Assembly: GCA_002695185.1 (NCBI GenBank)
Contig: NZOF01000134.1
Span: 1-20,821, forward strand
Length of the DNA stretch: 20,821 nucleotides
Direction: 5' to 3'
Origin: Erythrobacter sp.
GTDB taxonomy: Bacteria; Pseudomonadota; Alphaproteobacteria; Sphingomonadales; Sphingomonadaceae
Shown piece by piece: positions 5,580 through 20,370 of this stretch. Numbering within the stretch: position 1 is the first letter of the stretch; each line of letters starts with the position of its first letter. The notes beneath the pieces were generated by a model that was given only the letters and a program-made list of their open reading frames with translations, was not told the origin of the DNA and searched no databases. A program made the position numbers and the translations under genes.

Positions 5580-5584
5580 GGGGA

Positions 5585-6238
5585 TCAGTTCCTTCTGGAC
5601 AGGTGGTTAAAGGTTGCTACCAACCGGGCGAGCCAGCTGGTCGGCGCGAAGGGTTTGGAAGCGGGTGCCGGCGGTGCTGGCGACGGGCGCAGCATCACCA
5701 GTGCTTCGCTTTCGGCGAGCCGTCGGCCCGGCCGCGAGAAGTCCACCCGGCCAGCGCGATCCACGGACCAGACCGGGATCGGGCCGGTGGGATAGCGGCC
5801 ATCACGGAACAGATCGCGCTCGGCCTCGCGGCGGGGAATGATCGAGGCGGGCTTGCGCCAGTTGAGAAACGCGTCGGCGGCTGCAACGCGATTGCCGGCG
5901 TTCAGGTGCCGGGTCAGCGCGGCACGCTGGATGCCGCCGGTGTTGAAGTGGAAGGAGACCAGCGCATTGAACTCGTGCGGCTCGAGCGGCACGGTCACGG
6001 CGCGTGCAACTTCGGCCTCGTAGCGCGCAAGATCGGCGCGGAACAGCCGGAACGCCTCCCGGATCCCGGCGTCCGGGTCCTGGGGCATCCCGCGCGGCAT
6101 TTTTTCCGGATAGGGTGGCCCGGCTGCGGCCGTGTGGCCGATGCCAAAGGTCCAGGTGCCGGCGGAATCGCGGTAAGGCCCGGGCACGATGCCCTCGTGC
6201 CGGGCAAGGGCCAGCAGGCCCCGGTCGGTCATGTGCAT
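5585..6238 (-). CDS. Phage endolysin, GH24 lysozyme-like
   Basis: The 217-residue protein carries the T4-lysozyme-type triad with exact spacing: Glu15 (RHEG), Asp24 (PYRDSAG) and Thr30 (TWTFGIGHT), i.e. E-x8-D-x5-T. EFNALVSFHFNTG near residues 98-110 is the second family signature. It cleaves the glycan backbone of peptidoglycan during lysis. The C-terminus (about 160-217) is Pro-rich and ends LARLVATFNHLSRRN, possibly amphipathic. There is no signal peptide, so release should depend on a holin such as the neighbour at 6367-6714. An internal ATG two codons in (6232) is an alternative start. Confidence 0.9.
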   Translation of the reverse strand: MHMTDRGLLALARHEGIVPGPYRDSAGTWTFGIGHTAAAGPPYPEKMPRGMPQDPDAGIREAFRLFRADLARYEAEVARAVTVPLEPHEFNALVSFHFNTGGIQRAALTRHLNAGNRVAAADAFLNWRKPASIIPRREAERDLFRDGRYPTGPIPVWSVDRAGRVDFSRPGRRLAESEALVMLRPSPAPPAPASKPFAPTSWLARLVATFNHLSRRN

Positions 6239-6242
6239 GGAA

Positions 6243-6374
6243 CTATCCGAGTAGCGAGAGGATCAGGATCAGCGCGGCGACCGCAAGGCCGATGCGCAGG
6301 CGGTGGGTGAAGGCATCACGCGGGTCGTCGGTCAGACGCCGCAGGCCGCGCAGGACACGGACGAGTTCAGTCAT
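6243..6374 (-). CDS. 43-residue single-helix membrane protein
   Basis: The ORF begins MTELVRVLRGLRRLTDDPRD, a basic amphipathic segment, and ends with a clean transmembrane helix, LAVAALILILSLLG. Its ATG overlaps the stop of the holin-like gene by eight bases (ATGACTGA), and the endolysin ATG lies five bases beyond its stop. The ATGnnTGA pattern recurs through this cassette. It is probably a lysis accessory or antiholin; no named family is recognised. Confidence 0.62.
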   Translation of the reverse strand: MTELVRVLRGLRRLTDDPRDAFTHRLRIGLAVAALILILSLLG

Positions 6375-6714
6375 CGCGGCCCTCCCGTGCATCGCGCAAC
6401 CGGGCGAGCACCAGCTCAATCACTGCCGGGCCGAAAACACCGACCAGGTAGGCGGCGGAACCGGCGGCGGAACCGGCGGGGATCGCCTGCGGCGGCAGAC
6501 CCAGCCAGCTGGTAACGACGGCCATGGAGAGGCTCCCCATGCCGGCCGCAATCAGCCCGCCGAGCAGGATGTGGCGCAGGGCGTCGCGCAGGCGCATCTT
6601 CGTTGTCAGCGCGTTGGTGGCGCCGCCGAGCGCGCCCCAGGCGGCGAGGATCACGGCGGTGGAAGCGGCGAGATCGCGCAGCACCGTCGCGACGAAACCG
6701 GAATTGTCGTTCAT
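6367..6714 (-). CDS. Holin-like membrane protein
   Basis: The 115-residue protein has three hydrophobic segments: about residues 14-32 (LAASTAVILAAWGALGGA), 46-68 (HILLGGLIAAGMGSLSMAVV) and 82-102 (AGSAAGSAAYLVGVFGPAVI). It ends with a charged tail, LARLRDAREGRDD. Three helices, small size, a basic/acidic tail and position just before the endolysin fit a class I holin, which would open the inner membrane for the GH24 enzyme. The start overlaps the preceding chimeric gene by ATGA. The holin assignment is contextual. Confidence 0.7.
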   Translation of the reverse strand: MNDNSGFVATVLRDLAASTAVILAAWGALGGATNALTTKMRLRDALRHILLGGLIAAGMGSLSMAVVTSWLGLPPQAIPAGSAAGSAAYLVGVFGPAVIELVLARLRDAREGRDD

Positions 6715-7406
6715 CGCCGGATCTCCAGGAGCGGGATGGAGGTGATCGAGCCGAGCCGCTCGATATCGAGGGTGACGTCGAGCGTGTCAGTGTCGAAGCG
6801 AACCGGCACGTCGAATTCGAACCCGGCGGTGATGGTGGCGTCTGCGCCTGGAGGCGCATCGAAAGTCACCAAGCCAGCGGTTGTATCAACGGACCAGCCG
6901 CTTGCCTGCTCGACGCCATCGCTGGCGACGCGCACCGTGCCGACCACGGGCTTAGTGATGATTCGAGTCCAGGTCTGCGAGCCCGACGCGTAGGCCTTCA
7001 CCAGCTGAAACGCCGTCGTCGTGCCATCGCCTGTGCCGATGACCTGATCGGTCGCCGAAGGCATCTGCGATGGTGCGCAGGACTTCCAATCTGCCCAGTC
7101 CTTGAAGCGGAAGCCGAAAAGCCGTCCGTTCCGTGCCTCGAAGAAGGCGACAACCGCCGCCAGGTCGTCGGCGCGGCGGATGCCGTAGGCGACATCGTAG
7201 CGCCGGCGTGAGTTCGCCCAGCTGGCGTTGCGCTCCTCGTCGCCCGAGGCGAGTTCGACGATCTGGGTGCGCCGCTCGGGACCACCACGGGCGCCGCGGC
7301 TGATATCGTCGGGGAGGGTTGCGGGCTTGAAGGGGATGTTTTCCAGCGCGCGGGTGAGTTCGATGACCGAGAAGGCATCGGTGTCGAAGATGTCCATGGT
7401 GGGCAT
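6711..7406 (-). CDS. Chimeric phage protein: major capsid N-terminus joined to DUF2460 tail protein
   Basis: Residues 1-30 (MPTMDIFDTDAFSVIELTRA and on to FKPAT) match the start of the lambda-E-type major capsid protein, expected directly after a decoration protein. From about residue 31 (LPDDISRGARGGPERRTQIV) the rest matches DUF2460, a GTA/phage tail protein, with RRRYDVAYG and GRLFGFRFKDWADW as signatures. In intact phages the capsid, head-tail connector, tail tube and tape-measure genes lie between these two. The join near 7314 therefore deleted many kilobases while leaving the frame open. The DUF2460 part looks nearly complete; the capsid part is lost. The ATG at 7406 follows an AAGGA ribosome-binding site. 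Confidence 0.82.
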   Translation of the reverse strand: MPTMDIFDTDAFSVIELTRALENIPFKPATLPDDISRGARGGPERRTQIVELASGDEERNASWANSRRRYDVAYGIRRADDLAAVVAFFEARNGRLFGFRFKDWADWKSCAPSQMPSATDQVIGTGDGTTTAFQLVKAYASGSQTWTRIITKPVVGTVRVASDGVEQASGWSVDTTAGLVTFDAPPGADATITAGFEFDVPVRFDTDTLDVTLDIERLGSITSIPLLEIRR

Positions 7407-7433
7407 GGGAATGTCCTTTCAGCTTGTCAGGTG

Positions 7434-7811
7434 TCAGCGCACCAGGATGCCGGCGGCGGCGAGCGCGGTATGGGCGGCATCGATCTCGAGCTGGGTTGGC
7501 GTGCCGGCAAAGACCAGATCGTTGGCGTTGACGATGGCCGGGCCGCGCAGGAGCGCGACCGCCTCCACGTCGGCCGCTGTGGCATCGGCCTTGCCCCAGA
7601 GCACGGCGACGGCGGTCTCGGTGCCATCGGTGGCGGCCGGATCGTGAGCGGCGTATTTGCCGGTCGCCGTGATCTTGCCCAGCACCGTGCCGGGCTGCAG
7701 GATCGGGTTTGCGCCGCCGGTGGCGATGGTGACGACCTCGCGGGTGTAATCGCGGAAGGCCTCCCAGACGAGGAAGCCGCCGGGGTGGGTGGTCTCGGAA
7801 AGAACGGGCAT
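7434..7811 (-). CDS. Phage head decoration protein (lambda gpD-like)
   Basis: The 125-residue protein begins MPVLSETTHPGGFLVWEAFR and has the beta-rich body with LQPGTVLGKITATGKY typical of phage head decoration proteins (HDPD family). These trimerise on the capsid surface and stabilise the shell. It appears full length. Order is canonical: protease, decoration protein, capsid. However, both the protease and the capsid genes are damaged fusions here, so it has no functional capsid to bind in this window. Confidence 0.82.
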   Translation of the reverse strand: MPVLSETTHPGGFLVWEAFRDYTREVVTIATGGANPILQPGTVLGKITATGKYAAHDPAATDGTETAVAVLWGKADATAADVEAVALLRGPAIVNANDLVFAGTPTQLEIDAAHTALAAAGILVR

Positions 7812-7817
7812 CTGTAC

Positions 7818-8627
7818 TTATCCCTTGCGCTTGAAGGTGCGGTTGATGACGTCGCCCCAGGGCTTTGCCTGCGGCGCGGGCCCCGGTTGCGGGTGGGCGG
7901 CGGAGATGTCGGGATCGGCCGCGGCGCGGGCATCGATCAGCGCCTTGCGGATATCCTCGAGACTGATTTCCGCCTCGAGAAAGCCGGCGGCCATCTGCGG
8001 CTGACCCGCAAGGCGGCAGAGATCGACCACGGTCTTGGCGTAGGCCATGGCTTCCGTGCGGATGGCGGCGCGATCAGGTTCCGGATCGGCATTGGACCCG
8101 TTGGCAGGTTCCGGATCCGGTTCGACCGCAGTGGGATCGTCCTTCGCCTTCATCGCCACAACGATCGCTTCCGGCGCATTCCTGAACCCGCTCACATCGA
8201 AGCGCGCGGCCATCTTCACCGGCGCGGCCATGGTATCGGCGAGCCCCATGTCGATGGCTTCAGACGCATCAAACCAGGTCTCGGCCGCCATCAGGGTGGC
8301 AATCTCATCCTCCGCCTTGCCGGATTTCGCCGCGTAGCCCTTGATGAGCGCGCCCACGATCTTGTCGAGCGCCTCGGCCATGGCTCGCATGTCTGCCGCC
8401 GTGCCCATCACCAGCCCCGAGGGATCATGGATCATCAGAAAGGCGTTTTCCGGCATGACGATCTCATCACCCGCCATGGCAATGTAGGAGGCGGCCGAGG
8501 CGGCAATGCCGTCGATGCTCACGGTGACATTGCCGGCATGACGTTGCAGGGCGTTGTAGATCTCCTTCTCGAAGTAGCCGTAGATCGAGGCGATCGCGGC
8601 CTGCTGGTAGGGGCGCAGGGTCAGCAT
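7818..8627 (-). CDS. Chimeric phage protein: helicase N-terminus joined to ClpP-like prohead protease
   Basis: Residues 1-20 (MLTLRPYQQAAIASIYGYFE) are the typical start of a phage DEAD/DEAH-box helicase, just before where Walker A would come. From about residue 22 (EIYNALQRHAGNVTVSIDG) the sequence is a ClpP-family head-maturation protease, with nucleophile Ser44 in IAASAAS and His67 in LMIHDPSG. The protease segment carrying the Gly-Gly oxyanion strand (usually NSPGG) is missing, so catalysis is doubtful. The C-terminal 100 residues are a Pro/Asp-rich linker and helical tail. In intact phages the rest of the helicase, terminase and portal genes lie between the two parts. The ATG at 8627 overlaps the upstream stop. 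Confidence 0.83.
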   Translation of the reverse strand: MLTLRPYQQAAIASIYGYFEKEIYNALQRHAGNVTVSIDGIAASAASYIAMAGDEIVMPENAFLMIHDPSGLVMGTAADMRAMAEALDKIVGALIKGYAAKSGKAEDEIATLMAAETWFDASEAIDMGLADTMAAPVKMAARFDVSGFRNAPEAIVVAMKAKDDPTAVEPDPEPANGSNADPEPDRAAIRTEAMAYAKTVVDLCRLAGQPQMAAGFLEAEISLEDIRKALIDARAAADPDISAAHPQPGPAPQAKPWGDVINRTFKRKG

Positions 8628-9442
8628 GCGGCGGTCTCCTTCTCGCGGGCGTCGTTGGTCCAGGGGGAGCCGTCACGCATGCGGTAGGAGACGAAGTCCT
8701 CGCCTGCGTCGCTCACCTCGCCGGGGACGAGATCGGGGATGAACAGGTGCCGGCCGCAGGCGCGACGCTGGTCGGCAGGGTCGAGCAACCGGTCGTGGCG
8801 CGCGCAGTGCCAGCCGCCTTCGATGGGCGTGGAATGCAGGCAGGACCGGCAGGTGACGGCCGCGGCGTCCTCGCCGTGGCAGAGCCCGTGGTGGTCGCAG
8901 AACCGGCACTCGAACCAGGCGGGATCCGCGCTGATCCGCTCGGGCGGGTGCTGGGCGAAGATGATCCGCCGCGCCTTTTCCAGGAGGCGCTCGCCCGTCT
9001 CGGGGTCGGCCGGAACGCGCTCGATGTGCAGCGCGTCGGTGTCCTTGCAGACCGCGACGTAGAGCGCCCGCGTGATGCCGGTCAGGTGCATGTACACCTG
9101 CATCTGCGCGGCGTGCTGGGGCTTGGCGAGCGCAACGCCCTTGGCGATCAGCTCGGCAAAGCTCTTCGCGGAATGCGTCTTGAACTCGACGACGTGCCAG
9201 GTCTTCGGCGCTTCGAGCAGACCGAGGGCGACGGCGTCGAGCGAGCCGCCGAAATGCCCGCCATGCGCCTCGACGCGGAACTGCCGCCCGGTATCGGGAT
9301 CGACCTCCAGCACCGTCGCGCCGGTGGCGCGCAGGTCGCGGACGAGCCGGGCCTCTTCCAGCTGGCCGGTCTCGAACAGCCGCAGGATGCGGCCGGTGTG
9401 CCGCGAAGTTGTCGCCCAGCGGAAATCGTACCAGAGCGCACG
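8621..9442 (-). pseudogene. Phage PD-(D/E)XK nuclease, 5'-truncated
   Basis: About 273 residues remain of a phage PD-(D/E)XK exonuclease-like protein. It starts mid-protein at ALWYDFRWATTSRHTGRILR. The nuclease core is visible: GGHFGGSLDAVALG, then WHVVEFKTHSAKSF, with the acidic residue and E-x-K pair. A Cys-rich C-terminal part follows (ECRFCDHHGLC, TCRSC, HCARHD), reminiscent of Cas4/AddB-type Fe-S or zinc clusters. The family start (about 25-30 residues) is missing. The frame stays open to 9673, but that part is antisense to the recombinase remnant. It overlaps the helicase-protease chimera by seven bases, the usual nuclease-helicase order in these phages. Confidence 0.8.
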
Positions 9443-9445
9443 GGC

Positions 9446-9694
9446 ACGCAAGCCTTGGCGGCGCTGAAAGAGGATCAGGCCGGGATTTCCGAGGCCGATG
9501 CCGTCGCGGCCCTGCATGACTTCGACGCCCTCTGGGCGCAGCTGTTTCCCGCCGAACAGGCCCGGATCATTCAGTTGGTCGTGCGGCGCGTCACCGTCAC
9601 TGCCGCTGGGCTGGAGGTGGATATCCGGCGCGAGGGCATTTCGAGTGTGATCCGCGAGATGGTCGCGCCGCACAATCTGGAGGCCGCTGAATGA
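9446..9694 (+). pseudogene. Serine recombinase, C-terminal remnant
   Basis: The last ~82 codons of a large serine recombinase remain. LAALKEDQAGISEADAVAAL is followed by FDALWAQLFPAEQARIIQLV and EVDIRREGISSVIREM, the characteristic end of resolvase-type integrases of alphaproteobacterial islands. The catalytic Ser domain and zinc-ribbon domain are absent. Upstream, the plus-strand frame stays open, but that is antisense to the phage nuclease. The stop overlaps the next gene by ATGA. It marks an integrative element that once sat here; the gene cannot act now. Confidence 0.82.
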
Positions 9695-10074
9695 CCGGAC
9701 CCAATGACACGATCCGGGTGTTGATCCCGCTGAACGTTCGCAAAAAGAACGGTCGCCCGAAAATCCTGCCGCCCGCCGACTACCGCCCCAGCGAGGACCG
9801 AGCGCAGGACCCGCATATCCTGCGCGCCATCGGCCGCGCGTGGAGCTGGCGCCGACGCATGGAAGCAGGCGAGTTTGCCACGATCCAGGAACTGGCCGAG
9901 GCGGTCGATTTGGCCGAACGCCACGTCAGCCGCCAGCTGCGGCTGGCCTATCTCGCGCCTGAGGTTCTGAAGCGGTTGACCTGTGGCCGCGAGGCGTCGG
10001 CGGTGAGCCTGTATGACCTGTGTTTTCTGGCGGGGGAGACTTGGGGGGAGCAAGCATGGAAAGCGTTTGCGTAA
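9691..10074 (+). CDS. HTH-containing partner protein of serine recombinases
   Basis: The 127-residue protein starts MTGPNDTIRVLIPLNVRKKN and contains a helix-turn-helix-like segment around residues 68-92 (ATIQELAEAVDLAERHVSRQ then LRLAYLAPEV). Its start overlaps the recombinase stop by ATGA, the arrangement usual for this small family behind serine recombinases. It may bind DNA and act as a recombination-directionality or regulatory factor; that function is inferred. The C-terminal GETWGEQAWKAFA is a variant of the usual W-x-x-Q ending, and the gene looks full length. Confidence 0.75.
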   Translation: MTGPNDTIRVLIPLNVRKKNGRPKILPPADYRPSEDRAQDPHILRAIGRAWSWRRRMEAGEFATIQELAEAVDLAERHVSRQLRLAYLAPEVLKRLTCGREASAVSLYDLCFLAGETWGEQAWKAFA

Positions 10075-10128
10075 GGAAGGCACGCCGAATTTTCTGGCGC
10101 GGGTCAAATTCGTCAAAGTGCTGTGATT

Positions 10129-10749
10129 TCAGCGGTGATTGCTTTGGCCAGCTTTTTCGAAGACGATACCGTAGTGAAAAGGCGGCAGCTCGACTAGGCT
10201 GGCAAGTCGGAAACCAGCGCGCTCAACGATTCGCTGTACGGTTTCGGGTGACATCCGCAATTCGGTCTTTGGCCCCCGCGGTTTGCCTAGAACCTGTGTA
10301 TCTTCGCGTGTGGCCGGATACCAGTTCACGATTCCCAGCTTCCCACCAGGTTTGAGCACTTTGGCGACCGCCTCCACGATCGATGTCTTGTCAGGGATGC
10401 CGTGAAAGGTGTTCGCGATGAGAACATAGTCGGCCTTTTCAGGAATGATGTTGGCTACATCACGCGCATCAGCAAGGATCAAATCTCTGACCGTGGCGCC
10501 TTGCTGGTTGAGAGCCTCTCGTGTCTGGTCCAACATGTTCGGATCAAGGTCTACCGCGAACAGATTTCCCTTCACGATCTTCGCAAGGGGCGCTGTGAAG
10601 TAGCCGTCGCCACTGCAGAGGTCCACGACGGTCATATGATCTTTGATCCCGATCTTACGAAGCGTTTCTTCGGGTTCAGGCCATAGCTCTTGCCACCAAT
10701 CGCGATCGGGCATCGCTGTGGCGGGGAATATCAAATCCGGATCTACCAT
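10129..10749 (-). CDS. Class I SAM-dependent methyltransferase
   Basis: The 206-residue protein has SAM-binding motif I VVDLCSGDGYFT (about 41-52), acidic motif II FAVDLDP (64-70), motif IV region YVLIANTFHGIPD and motif VI LKPGGKLGIVNW. The fold is ubiE-like. The substrate is unknown; position at the end of a sulfur/rhodanese operon suggests a small molecule or a thiol or metalloid species, but that is inference. An AAGGCC purine-rich sequence lies about 10 bases upstream of the ATG. It follows the DsrE-like gene by 28 bases on the same strand. Confidence 0.85.
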   Translation of the reverse strand: MVDPDLIFPATAMPDRDWWQELWPEPEETLRKIGIKDHMTVVDLCSGDGYFTAPLAKIVKGNLFAVDLDPNMLDQTREALNQQGATVRDLILADARDVANIIPEKADYVLIANTFHGIPDKTSIVEAVAKVLKPGGKLGIVNWYPATREDTQVLGKPRGPKTELRMSPETVQRIVERAGFRLASLVELPPFHYGIVFEKAGQSNHR

Positions 10750-10777
10750 TTGGTCGGCCTTCTTTTGTTGGCAATCG

Positions 10778-11131
10778 TCAGAATACGAGGACTTTATCCG
10801 CCGAGATGGTTTCCTCGGCCAACTCTGGCATGGTGCTCCTTGCCGCGCCGTCGATAATATCTTCGTCAGTCATGCCCCGCGCATCCATACAGGTCCCGCA
10901 GATCAGCACGCGCCCCTTGCCGATGATCACACGCTTCAGCATGCGTTCCATGTTGTAGTAGCCATCGGGCGTCTTCTGTCCCTTGCGGGCGGAGACAATG
11001 GCATCAGCCATCAGGAATACCGTGACGGTTCCCTCTGGCTCGGCCTTCATCAGCGCATGCGCCAAGCGCAAGGCGTTGTAGCCGCGTTCGCTGCCATAGG
11101 GCGGGTCGTTCAGTATGAACAGGGTTTTCAT
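10778..11131 (-). CDS. DsrE/DsrF-like sulfur-relay protein
   Basis: The 117-residue DsrE-like protein begins MKTLFILNDPPYGSERGYNA and carries the conserved cysteines Cys78 and Cys81 in LICGTCMDARGM. In DsrE/TusD-type proteins the second conserved Cys accepts and passes on persulfide sulfur. The protein is cytoplasmic with no signal. It lies between a periplasmic rhodanese and a methyltransferase gene in a same-strand operon, which fits handling of sulfane sulfur. There is no full dsr or tus set nearby, so it is more likely part of sulfide/persulfide detoxification than of dissimilatory sulfur oxidation or tRNA thiolation. Confidence 0.86.
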   Translation of the reverse strand: MKTLFILNDPPYGSERGYNALRLAHALMKAEPEGTVTVFLMADAIVSARKGQKTPDGYYNMERMLKRVIIGKGRVLICGTCMDARGMTDEDIIDGAARSTMPELAEETISADKVLVF

Positions 11132-11198
11132 GTTTCACTCCGCAATTCATCGCATGGTTCTGGCGCCCTGCCGCGAGGATGGAAGGGCATCCTATTGA

Positions 11199-11624
11199 TC
11201 ATGGTTTGTAGGCCGCGTCCTGCTGCCAGCCGGTGAAGCCGGTTTGAAGCACCACCACATTGTCGCGCCCTGCGACCCGGAGGGCGAAGGCCGCCTGGGC
11301 CGACAAACTTCCGGTGTTGCAGAACAGGATTGTCTTGCGATCCGTTGGAATCTCGTCGATCCGGTCCAGCACCTCGCGCCATTCGATATTGACCGCCCCC
11401 GGAATGGTCGCCGCCGCAAATTGCTCGGCGTCGCGCGTATCGACGAACAGAACGCTTTCGAACACCTCCTGGTCGATCTGCTGCGGCAGGATGATCCCGG
11501 CCTCGTATTCCGAGAACATCATGTATTCCTGCATCGCCTCGATGGCGTCATCGTTGGCGAACGCCGGATGGGCGAGCGAGGCCAGCGAAGCCACCGCAGC
11601 GGCGGCGATCGTACGTGTGATCAT
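11199..11624 (-). CDS. Periplasmic single-domain rhodanese
   Basis: The 141-residue product has an N-terminal signal peptide with probable cleavage after AFA (residue 23). It then has a complete rhodanese domain: VLFVDTRDAEQFAAATIPGA near 58-77 and active-site loop starting at Cys102 (FCNTGSLSA). Rhodaneses move sulfane sulfur from thiosulfate or persulfides to acceptors. A longer frame reaches 11819, but the ATG at 11624 follows GAGGAG and begins the signal peptide. It sits 16 bases after the VTT-rhodanese stop. An insert with Met-rich AMQEYMMFSEYEAGIILPQQ precedes the catalytic domain; its role is unknown. Confidence 0.9.
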   Translation of the reverse strand: MITRTIAAAAVASLASLAHPAFANDDAIEAMQEYMMFSEYEAGIILPQQIDQEVFESVLFVDTRDAEQFAAATIPGAVNIEWREVLDRIDEIPTDRKTILFCNTGSLSAQAAFALRVAGRDNVVVLQTGFTGWQQDAAYKP

Positions 11625-11640
11625 CGGGTTTCTCCTCGTT

Positions 11641-12615
11641 TCAATGAACCTCGTAGCCAAGTTCGTTCCAGCGCACCATTCCACCGCGTAGCACCGACAG
11701 GTTCTCGAAACCGGCATCCCGAAGCTGGATTTCTGCAGCGGCGGAACGGCGATCTGTGCGGCAGACCGCAATGATTGCATCGGCTGTCTTCTCTCTGACG
11801 TCGGCCAAACGATCGGCAAGCTCCTCCAGCGGCACGTTGAGTGCGCCCGCGATGTGGCCGTGCTCGCCAGTGAACTCCTCTGGTTTCCGCACGTCGAGAA
11901 CCAGAACCCGTTCGCCGTTTTGCAGCCTTGTCAGAAGCTCTTCCGCCTCAAGCCATGGGGTTTCGTCGCCTCGAATTCGCTTGATCAGGCGAGGGAGCAG
12001 GGCGATTGCCGCAAGAAGCCCAAGAGCCAGCAGCCCGTAGCGAATGGAACTGGAGTTGCCCCCAATGGCTTCTCGACCGGCATGGCCGAGCCATGTGTAG
12101 GCAAGTGCGCCCGGCGCCATCGTGACAAACGACGTGACCACGTAGGACAGGAAAGGGATGCGGGTCAGGCCAAGCGCGTAGTTGGTCAGGTTGAACGGAA
12201 ACAACGGCACGAGTCTCACGAAGGCAACGAAGCGCCAGCCCTCGGCCTCAACGCCCTGGATCATTCGTTTCAGGCGCCCACCTGTCTTTTTTGAAACCCA
12301 ATCGCCAGCGAGATAACGCGCGACAAGGAAGGCAATCCCCGCACCGATCGTAGCCCCGGTCAGGTTCAGAAGCGTGCCCCACACCGGGCCGAACATCGCG
12401 CCACCAGCCAGCGCGAACAGCGAACCAGGCGCAAACAGGACCGTGCCGATGGCGTAGAGGGCAATATAGGCCAGCGGCGCCAGAATACCGAGACCGTCGA
12501 GCCATGCGTCCAGCAAGGCCGGATCAAGCTTGTCTCGATTCAGGGCTACGGCTGTGATCGCCACCGTGACCACAAGCAGCAGGATCAGCCGTGAATGGCG
12601 GCGTGACTTTTCCAT
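11641..12615 (-). CDS. TVP38/TMEM64 (VTT) membrane protein fused to a C-terminal rhodanese domain
   Basis: The 324-residue protein has an N-terminal membrane helix and a VTT/DedA-like membrane domain (about 45-210) with the glycine-rich FAPGSLFALAGGAMFGPVWG and a re-entrant-like segment LVPLFPFNLTNYALGLTRIP. A last helix lies near 185-205. Residues about 225-324 form a cytoplasmic rhodanese domain: RVLVLDVRKPEEFTGEHGHI, active Cys285 in AVCRTDRRSA, ending LRGGMVRWNELGYEVH. The fusion suggests a transporter or scramblase-type protein tied to persulfide chemistry; the transported species is unknown. It starts two bases from the stop of the upstream gene, so translation is probably coupled. Confidence 0.9.
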   Translation of the reverse strand: MEKSRRHSRLILLLVVTVAITAVALNRDKLDPALLDAWLDGLGILAPLAYIALYAIGTVLFAPGSLFALAGGAMFGPVWGTLLNLTGATIGAGIAFLVARYLAGDWVSKKTGGRLKRMIQGVEAEGWRFVAFVRLVPLFPFNLTNYALGLTRIPFLSYVVTSFVTMAPGALAYTWLGHAGREAIGGNSSSIRYGLLALGLLAAIALLPRLIKRIRGDETPWLEAEELLTRLQNGERVLVLDVRKPEEFTGEHGHIAGALNVPLEELADRLADVREKTADAIIAVCRTDRRSAAAEIQLRDAGFENLSVLRGGMVRWNELGYEVH

Positions 12616-12616
12616 G

Positions 12617-13453
12617 TTATTTCTCCTGATCGCGAGGATCGGGACCGCTGGCAGGACCGCGCAGCGGCTGGATGAGCATCTTGTCGAGCCAAAGGTCGCG
12701 CACCGTGCGGAACTGTTCGAAGCCGATGGTCATGCCCTCATGCCCGCCCTTTGGCTGGGCGGTGTAGGTGCCAAGAAGGCGATCCCACCAAGGCAGGTTG
12801 AAGCCGTAGTTGCTGTCGGTTTCCGAACGGATGATCGAATGATGCACGCGGTGCATGTCGGGCGTCACCACGAAGAGCCGCAGCACCCTGTCCACCTTTT
12901 CGGGCAGGCGAATGTTGGAATGGTTGAACATCGCAGTGGCGTTCAGGATCACTTCGAAGATCAGGACCGCGACGGCGGGCGGACCAAGGGCGACGACGAC
13001 TCCCATCTTGATCCCCATCGACAGGAGGATTTCGATCGGGTGGAACCTGAGCCCCGTGGTCACATCAAATCCGAGATCGGCATGATGCATTCGGTGTAGC
13101 CGCCAAAGGGCCGGGACAGCGTGAAACAGGACGTGCTGGAGGTAGATCGCGAAGTCGAGCGCCACGATTGAGACGACGATCGCCACCCAGCCCGGCACCT
13201 CGAAGATATTGAATAGGCCCCAACCGTTCTGTTCTGCCAGCAAGGCAAGCCCAACGGCAGCAATCGGGTAGGTCAGACGCACCAGGATGGTGTCGATGAC
13301 GACGAGGCCGAGGTTGTTGGTCCACCGGATGAGCCGGGGGATTTCGATCCTGCGACGGGGTGCGGCGATCTCCCACAGGGCCATCGCGCCGAGGATGCCC
13401 AGAAAGAAGGCAAGGCGGATCGTTGGCTCATTGGCCAGGATTGTGTCAGTCAT
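12617..13453 (-). CDS. Sterol desaturase / fatty-acid hydroxylase superfamily membrane protein
   Basis: The 278-residue membrane protein has the di-iron histidine clusters of the superfamily: H107-x3-H111 (HVLFH), H120-x2-H123-H124 (HRMHH), H138 (RFHPIE), H178 (FNHSN) and H201-x2-H204-H205 (HRVHH). Hydrophobic helices lie near 12-30, 48-75 and 88-106, and another near 150-172. It would use a di-iron centre and O2 to hydroxylate or desaturate a lipid. It is the first gene of the operon divergent from the ArsR-rhodanese regulator, so it is probably derepressed with the sulfur genes. Its lipid substrate and its link to sulfur are unknown. Confidence 0.88.
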   Translation of the reverse strand: MTDTILANEPTIRLAFFLGILGAMALWEIAAPRRRIEIPRLIRWTNNLGLVVIDTILVRLTYPIAAVGLALLAEQNGWGLFNIFEVPGWVAIVVSIVALDFAIYLQHVLFHAVPALWRLHRMHHADLGFDVTTGLRFHPIEILLSMGIKMGVVVALGPPAVAVLIFEVILNATAMFNHSNIRLPEKVDRVLRLFVVTPDMHRVHHSIIRSETDSNYGFNLPWWDRLLGTYTAQPKGGHEGMTIGFEQFRTVRDLWLDKMLIQPLRGPASGPDPRDQEK

Positions 13454-13534
13454 GAACTTGCTTTCTTGTGATCTGCCGACTCAGGCACTACATTCAAGTT
13501 ATCGCTTGAATGATATATTGGAGGGGCCGCTGAA
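13454..13534. promoter_or_regulatory. Divergent promoter region with inverted-repeat operator
   Basis: A perfect 8-bp inverted repeat, CATTCAAG (13491-13498) and CTTGAATG (13505-13512), is separated by six bases. A possible -10 element TATATT lies at 13514-13519, just before the ribosome-binding site GGAGGG of the regulator gene, so the repeat covers the likely promoter. ATTCAA/TTGAAT arms are typical of ArsR-family operators. Binding by the adjacent ArsR-rhodanese protein would repress both directions. This is inference from symmetry and position. Confidence 0.75.
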
Positions 13535-14194
13535 ATGTCAATCGGGCCGAAGCAACAGCTGTTCGACGAGTTCGCCACGATCGCGAAGGCCATCGGCAAC
13601 GGTGGACGGATCGAGATCCTTGAACACCTGTCTCAGACCGAAAAGAGCGTCGATGCGCTGGCCGAGGCAATTGGCCTGACCGTGGCCAACACCTCGCAGC
13701 ATCTCCAGCACCTGAAGCGCGCAGGTCTGGTGAGATCCCGCCGTGCAGGGAAATACGTGCTTTATCGTGTGGCTGGCGATGAAGTTGTCGAACTGATGCA
13801 GATGTTGTTCCGGCTCGGCGAGAAGAACCTTGCCGAGGTGGATCGGGTGTTGCGGGGGTATTTTCACGAACGCGATTCCATGGAGCCCGTCTCACATGAT
13901 GACCTGCTGCGCCGTTCCAGGGACGGGCTGGTCACAGTGTTGGACGTGCGCCCAAGTGAGGAGTATGCCGCAGGCCATATCCCCGGCGCGGTCAATATCC
14001 CCTTGAAGGAACTGGAGACCCGTTTGTCAGAGCTGGATACTGGCAAGGAAGTTATCGCCTACTGCCGTGGTCCGTATTGCGTGCTTTCGTTCGAAGCCGT
14101 GGCGGCGCTGCGGGGCAAAGGTCTCAATGCGCGTCGCCTTGAAGATGGGTTGCCAGAGTGGCGCGCTGCCGGGTTGCCTTTAGAGTGTTCCTGA
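13535..14194 (+). CDS. ArsR-family regulator fused to a rhodanese domain
   Basis: The 219-residue protein has a winged-helix ArsR domain (about 8-95; recognition region VANTSQHLQHLKRAGLVRSR, wing RAGKYVLYRV). A rhodanese domain follows (about 118-216) with VTVLDVRPSEEYAAGHIPGA and active loop Cys177-RGPY-Cys182. The only cysteines are 177, 182 and 218; the DNA-binding domain has none, so it cannot use the intradomain dithiol of SqrR/BigR-type sensors. Persulfidation in the rhodanese loop is the likely signal. GGAGGG lies 8-13 bases upstream of the ATG. It is divergent from the sulfur operon and shares the operator repeat with it. Confidence 0.92.
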   Translation: MSIGPKQQLFDEFATIAKAIGNGGRIEILEHLSQTEKSVDALAEAIGLTVANTSQHLQHLKRAGLVRSRRAGKYVLYRVAGDEVVELMQMLFRLGEKNLAEVDRVLRGYFHERDSMEPVSHDDLLRRSRDGLVTVLDVRPSEEYAAGHIPGAVNIPLKELETRLSELDTGKEVIAYCRGPYCVLSFEAVAALRGKGLNARRLEDGLPEWRAAGLPLECS

Positions 14195-14691
14195 GCTCCT
14201 TTTGGCCTGCATGCTGTCAAGCAGCGGGCACAGGCCACGCCCCACCAAATGACCCAATGGATTGGCAACTACAGACCGCATGCCAATTCACATGATGTTG
14301 CTCACAAATACTTAGAACCACGCCGCCTTCGGGTGTCTCTGTTCGCCTCGGTGGCGGCTGAACCTGTCTCAACTGCGGCGCAACCCATTTCCATCAAAAT
14401 ACTGAAAATGCGCTATTTTTTGAATCCGTCTCGATTTGGGTGAAGGGCGGGTGGAAAGAGACGCTGGCCGTTCAGAGACCGATTTTGGGCCAACGGTCAG
14501 TCTCCGAAAGTCGGATGGCTCCGCTAAACTACTTTGAAACAAAAAGAAAAAAGGCCGGCACCGGGGCCTCATCTAGGGTTCGCGAACAGCAAGTGGCGGG
14601 GCATGCGGGATAGCGATGAGAACTATGTCTACTCCATAGCCCTCTATGACCCTCCTAAATAAATTTGCGCGTCAGCCAATTTCGGAACGCT
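14195..14691. other. Gene-free stretch between the sulfur cluster and the defence cluster
   Basis: I see no convincing gene. Structures present are: a hairpin just after the regulator gene (GGCCTG 14204-14209 with CAGGCC 14231-14236, inner GCTG/CAGC), which may be a Rho-type or weak terminator; a 9-bp stem with one G-U pair (14464-14472 with 14492-14500) followed by TCCGA/TCGGA (14503-14507, 14511-14515); an A-rich run at 14539-14552; and the 10-bp palindrome GTTCGCGAAC at 14578-14587. It may be a junction of two inserted segments. Confidence 0.5.
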
Positions 14692-16239
14692 TTAGGTGTT
14701 CGTATTCGGGAGATGCTTGCCAACGTGCCCCACGACCATTTTCAAGCTCTCTTGGTCGAAAATAAAATGAATTGAAGCGCAAGAGTTTGGGTCCCCTGCG
14801 CCAATCGTGATGTGGGGCTCAAACAGTTGTTTCTCGCCCTGATAGTCGAACTCGTAGTGGGAGCGGAATTTACCACGCGTAGTATCAGAGATGTGCATGC
14901 TGCTCCGCTTTCCCCAACCATGGTCGCGGAGATGCTGGAGCAGGTCACCGCCGCTCCCTTTTTCTTCTCGGCTTTTTGCCCAAGCGTCGACGATCTCGTC
15001 AAGGTCGGTCAACGCCTTGAAGATGTCATAAGGTCGCTGAAAGGGACTGACCTTTGCCGCCGATATAGCGGTGTCGAGGATCTCGAGGTTTTTGCATCGC
15101 TCTGCCGCGACCTGGACGGCCTTCAACACGGAAGAGAACGAGAGTTCCTCAACTTCTTCGACCTGACCGAGTTCATCCGAGCTTCCGGCTCCGGCGGTGA
15201 AGAACACCTGCTGGTTGGCCCTAAGATTGGCGTTTTCCGCCTTAAGTTCTTCAAGCCGCTTCTCAGCCACATCGAGACGAGCAAGGTCACGCTCGTAGTC
15301 GGCCCAGAAGTCATCTCCAGTCTCTTTCTTTATGACTAGAGCCCTCTGTCTTTCAGCGGCCTCAGCGCGGCGGATCAGATCGGCAATCCGTCCGTCCGGC
15401 ACATAGCGGAATGCTGCGACCGTAAATATCGCTCGCTCGATTGTTCGAGCAGCCGCATCAGGCCCCACCTGCTCAATCCAGGTTCCGAAAAGCAACCGGT
15501 GGCTTCGCGGGTCCGACACCTTTGAGAAACCGGGCCAGTAGATCCGCGCCGCTCCATTGAAGCATGAGAGTTGCCGTCCAACGTCATCGGCAAAATCCCA
15601 AGTCAGCTCAGGATCATCGACCTGAACCACGACCGCAACACCGGCGAGATTCCGTGCTAGCCTAGCTGGGTCGATTTGATTGGCTTCTCCTCGGGCATAC
15701 GGAGACAACAAAACTACAGGAAGCCTGCGAAGGTCACTTGTTAGTAGGGTCAGCAGGTCACCCAGCCCATCTTGCTTCAAGGCGTAAGGTTCAGCTCTCA
15801 CCTGCATCTGTCCTATGTAGGTGGGAGTCTTCGTGCAGATATCACGAATTGCGCGCGGCGATCCGAAAAGCAGTTTTGCAGGCGACACGCTGTACTCGAC
15901 AGACTCAATGGAGATGAGATGCTCTACACCACAGCGATCACCGAACTGCCCGACGCGCACCTCGTTCGCCCATCTCAGGCCATCATCGTTGTCATCTGGG
16001 AAGGACCAGCGGACGCAAACCACATGTTCGCCAGCGTCTTGATAGACCGACGAGAACAGTGAGTGACGTTCCGGAACATCGCCTGAAGAACCTTCAACCT
16101 CTGGGTCGAAGTCGAAATCAGCAATCTGCCGTCGACTCCGATAGTGTTGAACGATCCAGTCCTTATAGCTGGAGAGAACAATAGCAACACCGTCGCCAGT
16201 CGCCACATCGAAACGACAAGCATAAACAAGACGAGCCAT
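14692..16239 (-). CDS. Unknown 515-residue coiled-coil protein of the defence cluster
   Basis: I do not recognise the family. The N-terminal ~200 residues are mixed alpha/beta (MARLVYACRFDVATGDGVAI). A central segment has LPVVLLSPY, then DPARLARNLAGVAVVVQVDD and QLSCFNGAARIYWPGFSKVS, resembling a compact alpha/beta domain with conserved small residues. A coiled coil follows at about 311-346 (AEKRLEELKAENANLRANQQ). The C-terminal ~80 residues (GWGKRSSMHISDTTRGKFRS then FEPHITIGAGDPNSCASIHF) form a likely beta domain. The frame begins at 16281, but the ATG at 16239 follows GGAGGG, so I use it. It lies 141 bases after the methyltransferase on the same strand and is presumably part of that system as a specificity or sensor subunit; this is inference. 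Confidence 0.78.
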   Translation of the reverse strand: MARLVYACRFDVATGDGVAIVLSSYKDWIVQHYRSRRQIADFDFDPEVEGSSGDVPERHSLFSSVYQDAGEHVVCVRWSFPDDNDDGLRWANEVRVGQFGDRCGVEHLISIESVEYSVSPAKLLFGSPRAIRDICTKTPTYIGQMQVRAEPYALKQDGLGDLLTLLTSDLRRLPVVLLSPYARGEANQIDPARLARNLAGVAVVVQVDDPELTWDFADDVGRQLSCFNGAARIYWPGFSKVSDPRSHRLLFGTWIEQVGPDAAARTIERAIFTVAAFRYVPDGRIADLIRRAEAAERQRALVIKKETGDDFWADYERDLARLDVAEKRLEELKAENANLRANQQVFFTAGAGSSDELGQVEEVEELSFSSVLKAVQVAAERCKNLEILDTAISAAKVSPFQRPYDIFKALTDLDEIVDAWAKSREEKGSGGDLLQHLRDHGWGKRSSMHISDTTRGKFRSHYEFDYQGEKQLFEPHITIGAGDPNSCASIHFIFDQESLKMVVGHVGKHLPNTNT

Positions 16240-16380
16240 GGACCACTCCCTCCTGACGAACCGATCGCGCGCAACACCCATTTATCGGATCGCCGTCTAA
16301 TAAATGACTGCTATGCGCCTGAAACTCGTCTCCCGATGTGTCGCGATTTGAAGACCGGTATTCTTTCACCTTTCTGTCGG

Positions 16381-17472
16381 CTAATCAGCCAGCTTTGCTC
16401 CAGCGGTATGATCGCAAAGCGCGGAGCGTACCTGGCGAGCAATTGCTTCGGCGAATACACATGGAAGCGCGTTCCCGACGATCTCGCAGGCACGCTCGAA
16501 GTGGGGCGTTTCGAATTTGTAATCGGGCGGAAAGGTTTGCAGCAAGGCCGCTTCCCTAAGTGAAATCGTTCGGTCCTTCTCCGGGTGTCCGAACCGACCT
16601 TTGCTGAGCGTGGTGCATCCGGCAGTAATAGTTCCCGAAGGCTCATCCCAACTCATTCGTCCATAAACGTTGGAAAATCCCTTGTAGCCATCACGGTGAC
16701 ACTGGACCCGCACCTCCTCGGGAAAATCACTCCAGTTTCCCCCAGGCCTCGCGTGCTTAAGTCTTTCCATGTTCTCCGGAGAAAGTTGCCGAACTACATG
16801 CCACTCGACAGCCTGCGCGCCGCCCCGCTCTTTGGCATCAACGAATGTTATCGGCTCATCCATACCATAGATGGCATCGCGCACGGTTCGCCAGCAAGGG
16901 AGGCCGTCCTCGCAAGTTCTTGAATGGGTTTTCTTGGGCATAGAGATTTTGAAGCCAAGTCCAGCGAGCATGACGAGCCTGCGCCGTTGCTGCGGCACCC
17001 CATAATCAGCAACCTGTAGCACCGACCAATTGGTCTCGTAACCCAGACCTTCAAGTTGCCGCAATAGAGCCTCGAAAAGCGGCTTTCCCTTTTGCGCTAA
17101 GCCGGGGACATTCTCCATCATGATAGCGCTTGGACGGAGTTCGTCGGCAAGCCTCCCCACCTCGCTGACAAGGGCATTTCTCTCGTCCTCTTTCCGCCAC
17201 TTGGATGTGAGTGTCGAGAAGCCTTGGCATGGTGGGCACGCAGCAAGAACATCCACTCTGCCACCGGCCAGTGGTGCCAACATAGCACCGGTGACTGTTC
17301 GCACATCTTGGCGGAAGACCTGCACGGATGGATGATTGGCCTTGAAGGTTGCCGCAGCGTGTGGTTCCAGTTCCACAGCGGCCACGGTATTGAAACCGGC
17401 GTCTCTTAGACCGACTGCAAGGCCGCCCCCGCCCGAGAAGATCTCGACCGCAGAAAACATCTCTCCACTCAT
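16381..17472 (-). CDS. dcm: DNA (cytosine-5)-methyltransferase
   Basis: The 363-residue enzyme has all m5C motifs in order: I EIFSGGGGLAVGL (10-22), IV PPCQGFS with nucleophile Cys82, VI MENVPG (119-124), VIII QQRRRLVMLA (161-170), a target-recognition region (about 190-290), IX region GTITAGCTTLSKGRFGHPEK and X GNALP near the end. It methylates C5 of cytosine in an unknown sequence. Its ATG overlaps the stop of the ATPase-nuclease gene by ATGA, so the two are translated together. In this context it should protect host DNA from the linked nuclease, and its product would create the T:G mismatches that Vsr repairs. The dcm symbol is used in the general family sense, not as an E. coli orthologue. 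Confidence 0.95.
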   Translation of the reverse strand: MSGEMFSAVEIFSGGGGLAVGLRDAGFNTVAAVELEPHAAATFKANHPSVQVFRQDVRTVTGAMLAPLAGGRVDVLAACPPCQGFSTLTSKWRKEDERNALVSEVGRLADELRPSAIMMENVPGLAQKGKPLFEALLRQLEGLGYETNWSVLQVADYGVPQQRRRLVMLAGLGFKISMPKKTHSRTCEDGLPCWRTVRDAIYGMDEPITFVDAKERGGAQAVEWHVVRQLSPENMERLKHARPGGNWSDFPEEVRVQCHRDGYKGFSNVYGRMSWDEPSGTITAGCTTLSKGRFGHPEKDRTISLREAALLQTFPPDYKFETPHFERACEIVGNALPCVFAEAIARQVRSALCDHTAGAKLAD

Positions 17473-19640
17473 CTAGAAATCGCCAGTTGCTTTTGTCTTT
17501 TGGCTTCTGCCAAGAATTCCTGATGCATGTGTTCGGTTCTGCGGAGAAAGCCGGTCCATGTGATATGCTCCACGGTTCTGTCCGCTTTGTAGGACTCAAA
17601 GGCACGCTGCTGCGAACCGCTCAGGCCAATCTCGTCGCACACCAAAGTGACGGTGAACGTCTTGAAAATGCGCTTGAACTCCTCGTGTCCTGGTAGATCG
17701 AGGAAGCGCCCCATCTGGTCGATATAGAGCTGGATTCGATCCCATTCGTTGTTTTGCAGTTTGTGTTTTGGTCGCTTTATTTCGATGATCTGAAGACCGA
17801 AATCGTCAGCGGATAAAACAAAATCAGGGCGTTTCTTGTCGGCGCCCTCCTCAAATGCTTCCAGACGTATCTTCTCTCCTGTTTGAGCTTCGAAAAATTT
17901 TTCAAATTCGGATCTCGCAGTAGAGAGCTGCTGATTGGACGTTATGGGTGACCAAAGTGGATTAACGAGCCATGGGGCTTCCTCAATTGAATCTTGGAGC
18001 GCTTGCTCCAAGGTCTCCTTTTCGTCTTTCAATTCGATGATTCGCTCGATGACCTTGACGCGTTTTTCAGCAATCATCCCGTACGATGATAGTTCAGCAA
18101 TTCTAGCCGTGCGAAGAATAGTTGCCATGACCGCAATCGCGGCGTCTTCTTCACTGGCCGCCGTTTTCAACGCATCATCAAGAATGACATGTGGCCCAAG
18201 TGCGAGACTATACTGGACAAGCGAGTCCACGTACGCCTCGTCTCTTGCTTCGGCCGGGCGCAGGCGCTCTCCCATCAGCCTGGCCAATTCAATTGTCTTC
18301 TCGCGGATCGGCTTCCAACGATCCCCAGGGTAGGCCTCTTGGACCTTGTTCATCACATCGCCGGTTTCAAGAAACTCCTCCCACACCTTCTTTTTCTCGG
18401 GCTCGCGCGATCTGGTTCCGACCAAAGCCACGATCCCCTGTCCCCACCGCTCGAAGTCCTGGCCGAGTTCATCAGACCAAAGGATGTCCCGGCGGTCCGT
18501 CTGGATCAGGTCCTCCTCCTCGTCCAGCCAGTCTGCGTGCAATTCCCCGACAAGATAGCTGCGCACGCTGTGTTCGCCGGTGAAGCCGGATTTGCGATTG
18601 AATACCGCTGTTTGCGCGGCGATCTTGCCTCGGCAATAGATACGGATGCCCGCCATTAGATCATCCCGATAGGATTCCTTGGCATAAGCTACCCAACCCG
18701 TCACGGGGTAGAAGATCCCGTTCGCGGAACTGAACCCGGCTGTCGCGCCCGGCACCTCTTTGCCAGCTTCATCCTTCGCCGTAAATTCGTCCCGCCTCGA
18801 AACATCGACAGCTTCAGTCGTGGGGCCATCGAGGACAATCTTGGTGTTGGGCATCGTGACGATCTCGAAGTCGCCCACAACCCGCTCGCGGCCGGTGGTG
18901 CCCGGTGCTTTGGTGGTGTCAACAAGGTTGATCTTCCAATGCGCTGATGCAACGCCGAAGCGCTGCGCAAGCTGACGGGAGAAAGTCTCCATGTCTGGCA
19001 CCTGCCGGCGGTTGAATTCCCTCATGACGATCGTGGTGCCGGGCTTCGACTGGACAGTCTCATCCAGCGCACCGACTTCCGGCTCGTAGCTGCCGTCATC
19101 GTCCGAGAGAATTTCGCTCCGCCGCATGATGAAATGGGCCGTTTTATAGCCGCGTGCGGGTTTTCCGTGCTCGTCTTTACCGTCGACCTCTTCGCCGCCC
19201 GACGAGATAAGCTCCAATGTTTCGCAGATGCCGAACGGCGCGAGCTTGCCCACTCCCTTGCGCCCCATCACACGACGCTTGTGATTCGGCGTCCTGTCTC
19301 CACGGCTGGGGTCTTTTCTTCGCTCCCCTCCGACCGTCAGGTAGAAAGGGTTTACGACCTGAGGCCGCATGCCATGTCCGTTGTCGCGGACGGTGATCGT
19401 ATAACCACTATCCGAGACAACACCCTTCGAAAGCGAGGCCAGAGTCACGCCCATCGGTGCCTCTACTGTCACCTCTTCGGCATCAGCGTCATATCCATTG
19501 GCAACGAGTTCAGCGATTACGGCGGAAACCTTGTCATAGAGCTTCACGCCAAGCTTATCGACGGTCATTCTGGAGATGGTCATGCGATACTTGCCGCGAC
19601 CGCTCGTTGCCCCCGTTACGTCAGTTGCCTGCTCATTCAT
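17469..19640 (-). CDS. GHKL (Hsp90/MutL-like) ATPase with C-terminal PD-(D/E)XK-like nuclease domain
   Basis: The 723-residue protein opens with a GHKL ATP-binding domain: N-box AVIAELVANGYDADA (Glu44, Asn48, Asp51), G1 box DNGHGM (86-91) and lid/G2 GRKGVGK (126-132). A middle transducer-like domain spans about 200-400, and a helical part with a coiled coil lies near 540-575. The C-terminus carries Pro605-Asp606 (KRPDFVL) and Glu620-x-Lys622 (LQIIEIKRP), the spacing of a PD-(D/E)XK nuclease and similar to Shedu (DUF4263)-type cores. It is likely the restriction effector: ATP-driven clamp or dimerisation coupled to DNA cleavage. It is coupled by ATGA overlaps to the RHH gene upstream and the methyltransferase downstream. 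The nuclease call is by motif only. Confidence 0.87.
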   Translation of the reverse strand: MNEQATDVTGATSGRGKYRMTISRMTVDKLGVKLYDKVSAVIAELVANGYDADAEEVTVEAPMGVTLASLSKGVVSDSGYTITVRDNGHGMRPQVVNPFYLTVGGERRKDPSRGDRTPNHKRRVMGRKGVGKLAPFGICETLELISSGGEEVDGKDEHGKPARGYKTAHFIMRRSEILSDDDGSYEPEVGALDETVQSKPGTTIVMREFNRRQVPDMETFSRQLAQRFGVASAHWKINLVDTTKAPGTTGRERVVGDFEIVTMPNTKIVLDGPTTEAVDVSRRDEFTAKDEAGKEVPGATAGFSSANGIFYPVTGWVAYAKESYRDDLMAGIRIYCRGKIAAQTAVFNRKSGFTGEHSVRSYLVGELHADWLDEEEDLIQTDRRDILWSDELGQDFERWGQGIVALVGTRSREPEKKKVWEEFLETGDVMNKVQEAYPGDRWKPIREKTIELARLMGERLRPAEARDEAYVDSLVQYSLALGPHVILDDALKTAASEEDAAIAVMATILRTARIAELSSYGMIAEKRVKVIERIIELKDEKETLEQALQDSIEEAPWLVNPLWSPITSNQQLSTARSEFEKFFEAQTGEKIRLEAFEEGADKKRPDFVLSADDFGLQIIEIKRPKHKLQNNEWDRIQLYIDQMGRFLDLPGHEEFKRIFKTFTVTLVCDEIGLSGSQQRAFESYKADRTVEHITWTGFLRRTEHMHQEFLAEAKRQKQLAISR

Positions 19641-19840
19641 CTTTCTCGCCCCCTTCCGCGTCGGCCCGCCACCTCGTCGTCAGTCATCTCAAAGCCGGCG
19701 GCGCGCAACGCCTCCAGCACTATTGCCCGCTTGGTTCGGCCGGTTTCAGCTGCACGCACGTCGAGTTCGTGCTTGATCCTCCGCGGGACCGTGATCTGCA
19801 GGGGAACCTCGTCGGATGCTTCACGTCTCGGTGCGGGCAT
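19637..19840 (-). CDS. Small ribbon-helix-helix-type DNA-binding protein, probable autoregulator
   Basis: The 67-residue protein has an RHH-like pattern: a beta strand PLQITVPRRIKHELDVRAAE (about 13-32), helix, turn at TGRTKR, second helix AIVLEALRAAGF, then a basic tail GRRGRGRER. RHH proteins bind DNA as dimers through the strand. Ribosome-binding site GAAGGGAG lies seven bases upstream of the ATG. A perfect inverted repeat begins 12 bases beyond the start codon (19853-19874), a natural operator. Its stop overlaps the ATPase start by ATGA. It is probably a repressor keeping methyltransferase and nuclease expression balanced; an antitoxin-like or DNA-targeting role is also possible. Confidence 0.78.
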   Translation of the reverse strand: MPAPRREASDEVPLQITVPRRIKHELDVRAAETGRTKRAIVLEALRAAGFEMTDDEVAGRRGRGRER

Positions 19841-19852
19841 ATCGCGCTCCCT

Positions 19853-19874
19853 TCATGAAAACAACATTTCATGA
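19853..19874. promoter_or_regulatory. Perfect inverted repeat, probable operator of the RHH protein
   Basis: TCATGAAA (19853-19860) and TTTCATGA (19867-19874) are exact reverse complements separated by ACAACA. Each arm contains the palindrome TCATGA, so two copies of TCATGA lie 16 bases apart. The site lies 12 bases upstream of the RHH start codon, next to its ribosome-binding site, in the 116-bp region shared with the divergent vsr gene. Binding here would block the RHH operon and possibly vsr. Confidence 0.7.
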
Positions 19875-19956
19875 TTACGAGGCTGAGTGAAGAGGTTAAA
19901 TTACTGCGCTGGGTATTGCGTCGCGAACGAAATAAGACTGATGGTATTGTCACACG

Positions 19957-20370
19957 ATGGATGTCTTCAGCCGGGAAAAACGCAGTGAAGTCATGTCGCG
20001 GGTTCGCTCCAAGGACACGAGGCCGGAACTAATCGTACGTCGATCCCTCCACCGCAGCGGGCTCCGTTTTCGCTTGCATAGGCGCGACCTACCTGGGCAA
20101 CCGGACATCGTGCTACCTTCTCGCAAGGTCGTCGTTTTTGTTCATGGCTGCTTCTGGCACCGCCATCCTGGTTGTCGGCGCGCCACAATGCCCGCTTCTC
20201 GTACGGAGTTCTGGAAAGCCAAATTTGATGCCACCGTCAAAAGAGACGCGAAAGCGGTCTGTGCGCTGGAGGCGGCGGGCTGGACGGTGCTGGTGGTATG
20301 GGAGTGCGAGACGGGAACCGAAGCGCTGCATGCCCTATACCAACGGATAATCTCCGAGCCGGCGCATTGA
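19957..20370 (+). CDS. vsr: Vsr-family very-short-patch-repair endonuclease (copy 2, active site intact)
   Basis: The 137-residue protein has the full Vsr set: Glu24, catalytic Asp50 (QPDIVLP), His63 and His68 in VHGCFWHRHPGC, Asp97 (VKRDAK), and zinc ligands Cys65, His70, Cys73 and Cys117 (VVWEC). It nicks at T:G mismatches in a methyltransferase-specific sequence and hands over to polymerase. It diverges from the RHH-ATPase-methyltransferase run across 116 bp. No clear ribosome-binding site precedes the ATG at 19957 (GTCACACG), so it may be leaderless or weakly translated. It belongs with the methyltransferase at 16381-17472, though a second nuclease role in restriction cannot be excluded. 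Confidence 0.95.
   Translation: MDVFSREKRSEVMSRVRSKDTRPELIVRRSLHRSGLRFRLHRRDLPGQPDIVLPSRKVVVFVHGCFWHRHPGCRRATMPASRTEFWKAKFDATVKRDAKAVCALEAAGWTVLVVWECETGTEALHALYQRIISEPAH

Follow-up and report, generated by a model that had tools for sequence, protein, structure and literature searches.

Five genes at positions 14692-20370 of a 20,821-nucleotide stretch of Erythrobacter sp. DNA (contig NZOF01000134.1; the whole stretch is called the window) raise the question of whether they form a single defence system. An earlier note had read them as one, in which a 515-aa coiled-coil protein was the sensor or specificity subunit of a nuclease fused to a GHKL ATPase, accompanied by a ribbon-helix-helix (RHH) regulator, an m5C methyltransferase (MTase) and a Vsr protein. 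The five open reading frames (ORFs) were confirmed where that note had placed them, with the predicted families, as were the two ATGA overlaps that link the RHH, GHKL and MTase genes and the divergence of the Vsr gene from the RHH gene across 116 bp (19841-19956). The best explanation, and a highly probable one, is that two separate defence units adjoin here: a type II restriction-modification-Vsr (R-M-V) cassette at 16381-20370 and a HEC-07-like gene at 14692-16239. The features are as follows.

14692..16239, minus strand: HEC-07-like protein, 515 aa (PADLOC PDLC04161, E = 6.9e-43; homologues, predicted model and gene borders)
16240..16380: gap of 141 bp between the MTase and HEC-07-like genes, holding an inverted repeat (16267-16285/16300-16318, 74% complementary)
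16381..17472, minus strand: m5C DNA methyltransferase, 363 aa (Pfam PF00145, 1.6e-57; TIGR00675, 155.6 bits, cut-off 100.65)
17469..19640, minus strand: restriction endonuclease with GHKL ATPase, S5 and C-terminal PD-(D/E)XK domains, 723 aa (NF050001, PADLOC REase_II, motifs and fold)
19637..19840, minus strand: RHH regulator, 67 aa, opening the R-M operon (weak profile matches)
19853..19874: candidate RHH operator TCATGAAA-n6-TTTCATGA, an inverted repeat 12 bp upstream of the RHH start
19957..20370, plus strand: Vsr mismatch endonuclease, 137 aa (Pfam PF03852, 6.8e-32; TIGR00632, 141.4 bits, cut-off 97.85)

For the co-occurrence analysis, all collected loci were searched by tblastn with the five proteins of the window. 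Within the sequence examined, none of the 29 HEC-07 loci (26 distinct) has a match to the endonuclease (R), the MTase (M), the RHH protein or Vsr (V). Reciprocally, HEC-07 is absent from all 80 loci that match the GHKL protein, 40 of which (35 distinct) also have the MTase; many of the 80 match the ATPase domain only and may represent other GHKL families. Three duplicates (L018, L121, and L122) were removed from the 29 loci and ten from the 80. Both of the near-identical contigs L050 and L051 were counted, and likewise the Bradyrhizobium plasmids L001 and L003, whose surroundings resemble each other; L022 and L025, profile matches lacking a tblastn match, are outside the 29. At the genome level, HEC-07-like proteins (25% identity) were found in one of 14 genomes chosen from those with endonuclease matches, where the nearer gene is ~68 kb from the endonuclease gene. 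The endonuclease was searched in ten genomes or records, nine of them HEC-07 genomes (from 13 loci), and the single match, with 24% identity, sits in a stretch without HEC-07. Because HEC-07 and the R, M and V genes never co-occur in the loci examined, they are regarded as independent units, and a mechanism shared by the two is unlikely.

The single five-gene system, with the 515-aa protein as a sensor or specificity subunit, is accordingly rejected for zero co-occurrence in both directions and is very improbable. Its genes lie on the same strand with a 141-bp gap lacking a detected terminator, and both the 515-aa protein and the endonuclease match defence families, but R, M or V is present in 0 of 26 distinct HEC-07 loci and HEC-07 in 0 of 35 distinct R+M loci, in all of which the R+M pair stands without it, within the limits of the flanks. 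Type II R and M enzymes bring their own specificity, which counts against a specificity subunit. The co-occurrence of the 515-aa family with the GHKL nuclease elsewhere, on which the earlier note's proposal depended, was looked for and is absent from the loci examined.

The 515-aa protein is instead like HEC-07, a PADLOC family listed as a candidate for solo defence. It matches four HEC-07 models: PDLC04161, over residues 89-527 of a 529-codon ORF, PDLC04159 (4.1e-20), PDLC04160 (6.6e-13), and PDLC04158 (3.6e-7). The start at 16239 is that used by most full-length homologues. The protein consists of an N-terminal alpha/beta domain, a thioredoxin-like middle (~135-275), a coiled coil (~283-348), and a conserved C-terminal domain (~425-515). 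The predicted model (pLDDT 84.5, pTM 0.59) has its fold match in the thioredoxin-like middle, and no solved structure reveals an activity. All 26 sequences of the alignment share six residues of the C-terminal domain: E474, H476, C487, H491, H505, and H509 (P0006 numbering). This domain is shared with the NsnC models of PADLOC (PDLC03912, 2.1e-12). The likeness to NsnC covers the C-terminal ~145 residues, whereas the N-terminal two thirds are unmatched, and even the top NsnC model is aligned, in its best stretch, only at profile positions 181-311 of 316. Shorter proteins with the C-terminal domain were considered as a separate architecture, which was rejected: the ten compared (315-461 aa) align nearly end-to-end to the HEC-07 protein, and because they do so over nearly all their length they are regarded as truncated or differently started forms of it.

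The DNA similarity among HEC-07 copies supports a unit of one gene. With blastn, the window is covered at 14691-16249 by L004, 14693-16240 by L005, 14696-16240 by L006, 14693-16238 by L007, 14694-16279 by L043, and 14691-16264 by L044; in these six copies the similarity is thus limited to the gene plus at most ~40 bp. Since it stops near the gene borders, the mobile unit is considered to be the single gene. The copies in L004, L005, L043, and L044 are 76-84% identical and have common flanks by eye, which may represent a moron-like prophage site. The gene converges with that of a phage cement protein in L005 and L043 and with a capsid gene in L044, and a capsid protein gene is near it in L005 as well. 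That some copies adjoin phage capsid genes suggests carriage of HEC-07 by prophages. In other loci, AbiH directly follows HEC-07 (L006), a D12 MTase directly precedes it (L009), or Cas3 and Cse1 are within ~7 kb (L008). In L012 (10001-10673), only residues 63-182 and 411-513 are left, in two pieces with 87% identity, which marks a decayed copy.

HEC-07-like genes were found in at least 13 distinct loci in a pattern scan of genome contigs, in nine genomes out of 385 sampled within one class (one strong match, in the genome used as centre, and eight weak), in three viral contigs, and in six plasmid records. The protein looks rare. HEC stands for Hma-embedded candidate, and the families take their name from embedding in other defence loci (PMC12988326, PMC11411939; HEC-07 itself is named in neither, as far as the available parts of these papers go). 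Their source is the preprint 10.1101/2024.01.29.577857, as cited in the part of PMC11411939 at hand. The literature searched contained neither the name HEC-07 nor a mechanism for it, and a search on NsnA/B/C returned only unrelated papers. The window copy is like HEC-07 in matching four models and unlike it in adjoining an R-M-Vsr cassette.

The restriction-modification-like nature proposed earlier for the other genes is borne out by the family matches of the endonuclease, the m5C MTase and Vsr, and the fusion of the nuclease to a GHKL ATPase holds as a GHKL-ATPase/PD-(D/E)XK protein. Residues 18-717 of the 723-aa protein align to positions 1-649 of 659 of NF050001 (BbrUII/HgiDII), and it matches PADLOC REase_II (E = 5.8e-31). 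The nuclease domain is assigned from the NF050001 match and the conserved D606, E620, and K622, not from a fold match; these PD-(D/E)XK residues are kept in 23 of 23 aligned relatives, T202 in 22, and E578 in 21. The endonuclease is paired with the MTase through the ATGA overlap in the window, and the two are found together in 35 distinct loci, in 29 of them no more than 500 bp apart. The full-length match and the partner m5C MTase are common to BbrUII/HgiDII, while the score below the equivalog cut-off and the RHH gene with a candidate operator in front are not; the endonuclease is thus assigned, on profile evidence, as a relative and not as a scored equivalog. The specificity GTCGAC given for M.HgiDII in the part of PMC5867850 consulted is not transferable to the window enzyme.

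The GHKL, S5 and C-terminal RE-fold nuclease domains are also those of the paraMORC3-type proteins, whose genes are adjoined by DNA cytosine methylases and Vsr-type nucleases according to the accessible text of Iyer, Abhiman and Aravind 2008 (PMC2292703). The same domains near DCM and Vsr genes are found in the window cassette. Unlike those neighbourhoods, the five window genes include no helicase, and the RHH regulator is unmentioned in that portion of the paper. The R-M-Vsr part is therefore already known, its architecture and neighbourhood having been described by Iyer et al. 2008.

A further explanation makes the MTase a separate partner and the GHKL protein either a modification-dependent enzyme or a nuclease of Shedu type I-D, like VcSduA. 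VcSduA likewise has a GHKL ATPase fused to PD-(D/E)XK, and such proteins are called paraMORC3 in the part of PMC12137116 available. However, the 723-aa protein has no DUF4263 match in a Pfam search with E up to 1, for which the Shedu type I-D identity was rejected; it matches BbrUII/HgiDII over its full length, and 35 distinct loci have an m5C MTase alongside it. This explanation is improbable. As to an Hma locus around the window HEC-07 gene, the 723-aa protein matches none of the HmaC models of PADLOC, and the comparison of the MTase with HmaB extends to the best 25 of 64 families.

The RHH gene is the first gene of the operon with a palindrome just upstream, a C-protein-like arrangement. 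The 8-bp inverted repeat TCATGAAA/TTTCATGA at 19853-19874 precedes the RHH start by 12 bp, and its pattern is present in 0 of 100 shuffles. Of the 108 loci scanned, a single one, represented by both L062 and L083, contains the pattern. It stands there 14 bp upstream of an RHH gene with 70% identity, behind which comes the gene of a shortened endonuclease (338 aa, 77% identity). Because the palindrome recurs before this RHH gene in another genome, autogenous control is supported, and the RHH protein may control its own promoter via the palindrome. The RHH protein also matches a RelB-like antitoxin model (E = 3.5e-4, 20.7 bits, cut-off 50). In L050 and L051, a different small protein is encoded directly 5' of the endonuclease, the L050 copy being a weak RHH match (E = 0.012). 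An RHH-controlled R-M system was not found in the literature searched, including the available part of PMC3874152, where the RHH repressors named belong to toxin-antitoxin systems. A type I R-M island is repressed by RptR, which is alpha-helical and has a different 6-bp site, as described in the accessible part of PMC12255303.

Several observations weigh against the two-unit explanation or the identities within it. The flanks are short in many loci: for the 26 HEC-07 loci, at least 2 kb is available on the 5' side (the R-M side in the window) in 15, and both flanks reach at least 1 kb in 19 and at least 2 kb in 12, while 18 of the 29 loci with R and M close together extend at least 1.5 kb past M, and 16 extend that far on both sides. 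Thirteen of the 26 HEC-07 loci are only 22-41% identical to the window protein, and the closest endonuclease relatives (80-93% identity) were left out of the neighbourhood counts. L007 has genes for an N6/N4 MTase and an SNF2 helicase within ~6 kb of HEC-07, and L044 has an N6 MTase with an HSDR_N domain within ~8 kb; from these, R-M company of HEC-07 in general is possible. The 723-aa protein scores 225 bits on NF050001, missing the equivalog cut-off of 550, and the RHH protein matches Pfam RHH_1 only weakly (E = 0.012, under the cut-off). The 7.1-kb contig L119 encodes a full-length 70%-identical endonuclease and has no M, RHH or Vsr match and, on the strand read, no TCATGAA half-site, which also speaks against RHH control being general among such endonucleases. 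A simple scan of the gap at 16240-16380 gives no terminator-like site between M and the 515-aa gene, so co-transcription from the R-M operon is possible.

Such co-transcription would be the outcome of a local operon capture, in which HEC-07 arrived behind M and came under the RHH-controlled promoter, the two units sharing regulation and not mechanism. It is a special case of the two-unit explanation and compatible with it. The same strand, the short gap without a terminator-like site, and the naming of HEC families for embedding in other defence loci (PMC12988326, PMC11411939, from the parts available) favour it, but the arrangement is seen in this window only, and the copies in L004, L043, L044, and L006 have a promoter-like stretch before the gene by eye. 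Operon capture is thus a tentative and rather doubtful possibility. Quite unlikely is the stronger version, that HEC-07 behind M is a back-up effector activated by a failure of restriction or by derepression of the operon; if true, it would make a layered restriction/abortive unit run by one RHH operator.

For the two separate units, the following mechanism can be proposed. By binding the palindrome before its own gene, the RHH protein would restrain the RHH-R-M operon, and possibly vsr, at the level of transcription. The m5C methyltransferase would protect the host sites, and, by analogy with relatives, ATP-driven dimer closure of the GHKL/S5 module would gate the C-terminal PD-(D/E)XK nuclease on unmethylated sites. 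Vsr repairs T:G mismatches arising from m5C deamination. The HEC-07-like protein might act alone as a coiled-coil oligomer, whose N-terminal and thioredoxin-like domains could conceivably sense an infection cue, with the His/Glu/Cys-rich C-terminal domain as the effector. The separation keeps a neighbour gene from being mistaken for an R-M subunit. The cassette belongs to an already described R-M-Vsr type and brings a concrete candidate RHH operator, and border and context data are added for HEC-07, a candidate defence gene.

DNA matches of the window (Shinella, Thioclava, Rhodobacter phages) indicate an alphaproteobacterium. In the rest of the window, a second Vsr gene is located at 949-1452 on the minus strand (PF03852, 1.9e-27), its product and the Vsr at 19957-20370 sharing 51% identity over 118 aa. 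Beside it, an SNF2 helicase is encoded at 1374-2912 on the minus strand, with ZorD and DpdE as the best PADLOC matches and the HmaA model (1.1e-14) ranked below them. The two genes are possibly part of another defence locus. The region 2257-10116 (minus strand) contains phage tail/lysis-type genes resembling those of gene transfer agents, with Pfam matches to GTA_TIM, the baseplate hub N-terminal domain, DUF2460, phage lysozyme, and Clp protease; the other ORFs of this region have no Pfam match. Between this module and the R-M cassette, 10129-14194 encodes a small methyltransferase, a rhodanese, a VTT-rhodanese, a fatty acid hydroxylase, and an ArsR-rhodanese fusion. A tRNA-Asn(gtt) gene is at 24-98, the left end of the window. 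In L083, tRNA-Asn is at 10182-10256, ~200 bp from the RHH/endonuclease remnant, with a flank similar by eye to that of the window, and tRNA-Asn may be a site at which defence cargo is preferentially inserted.
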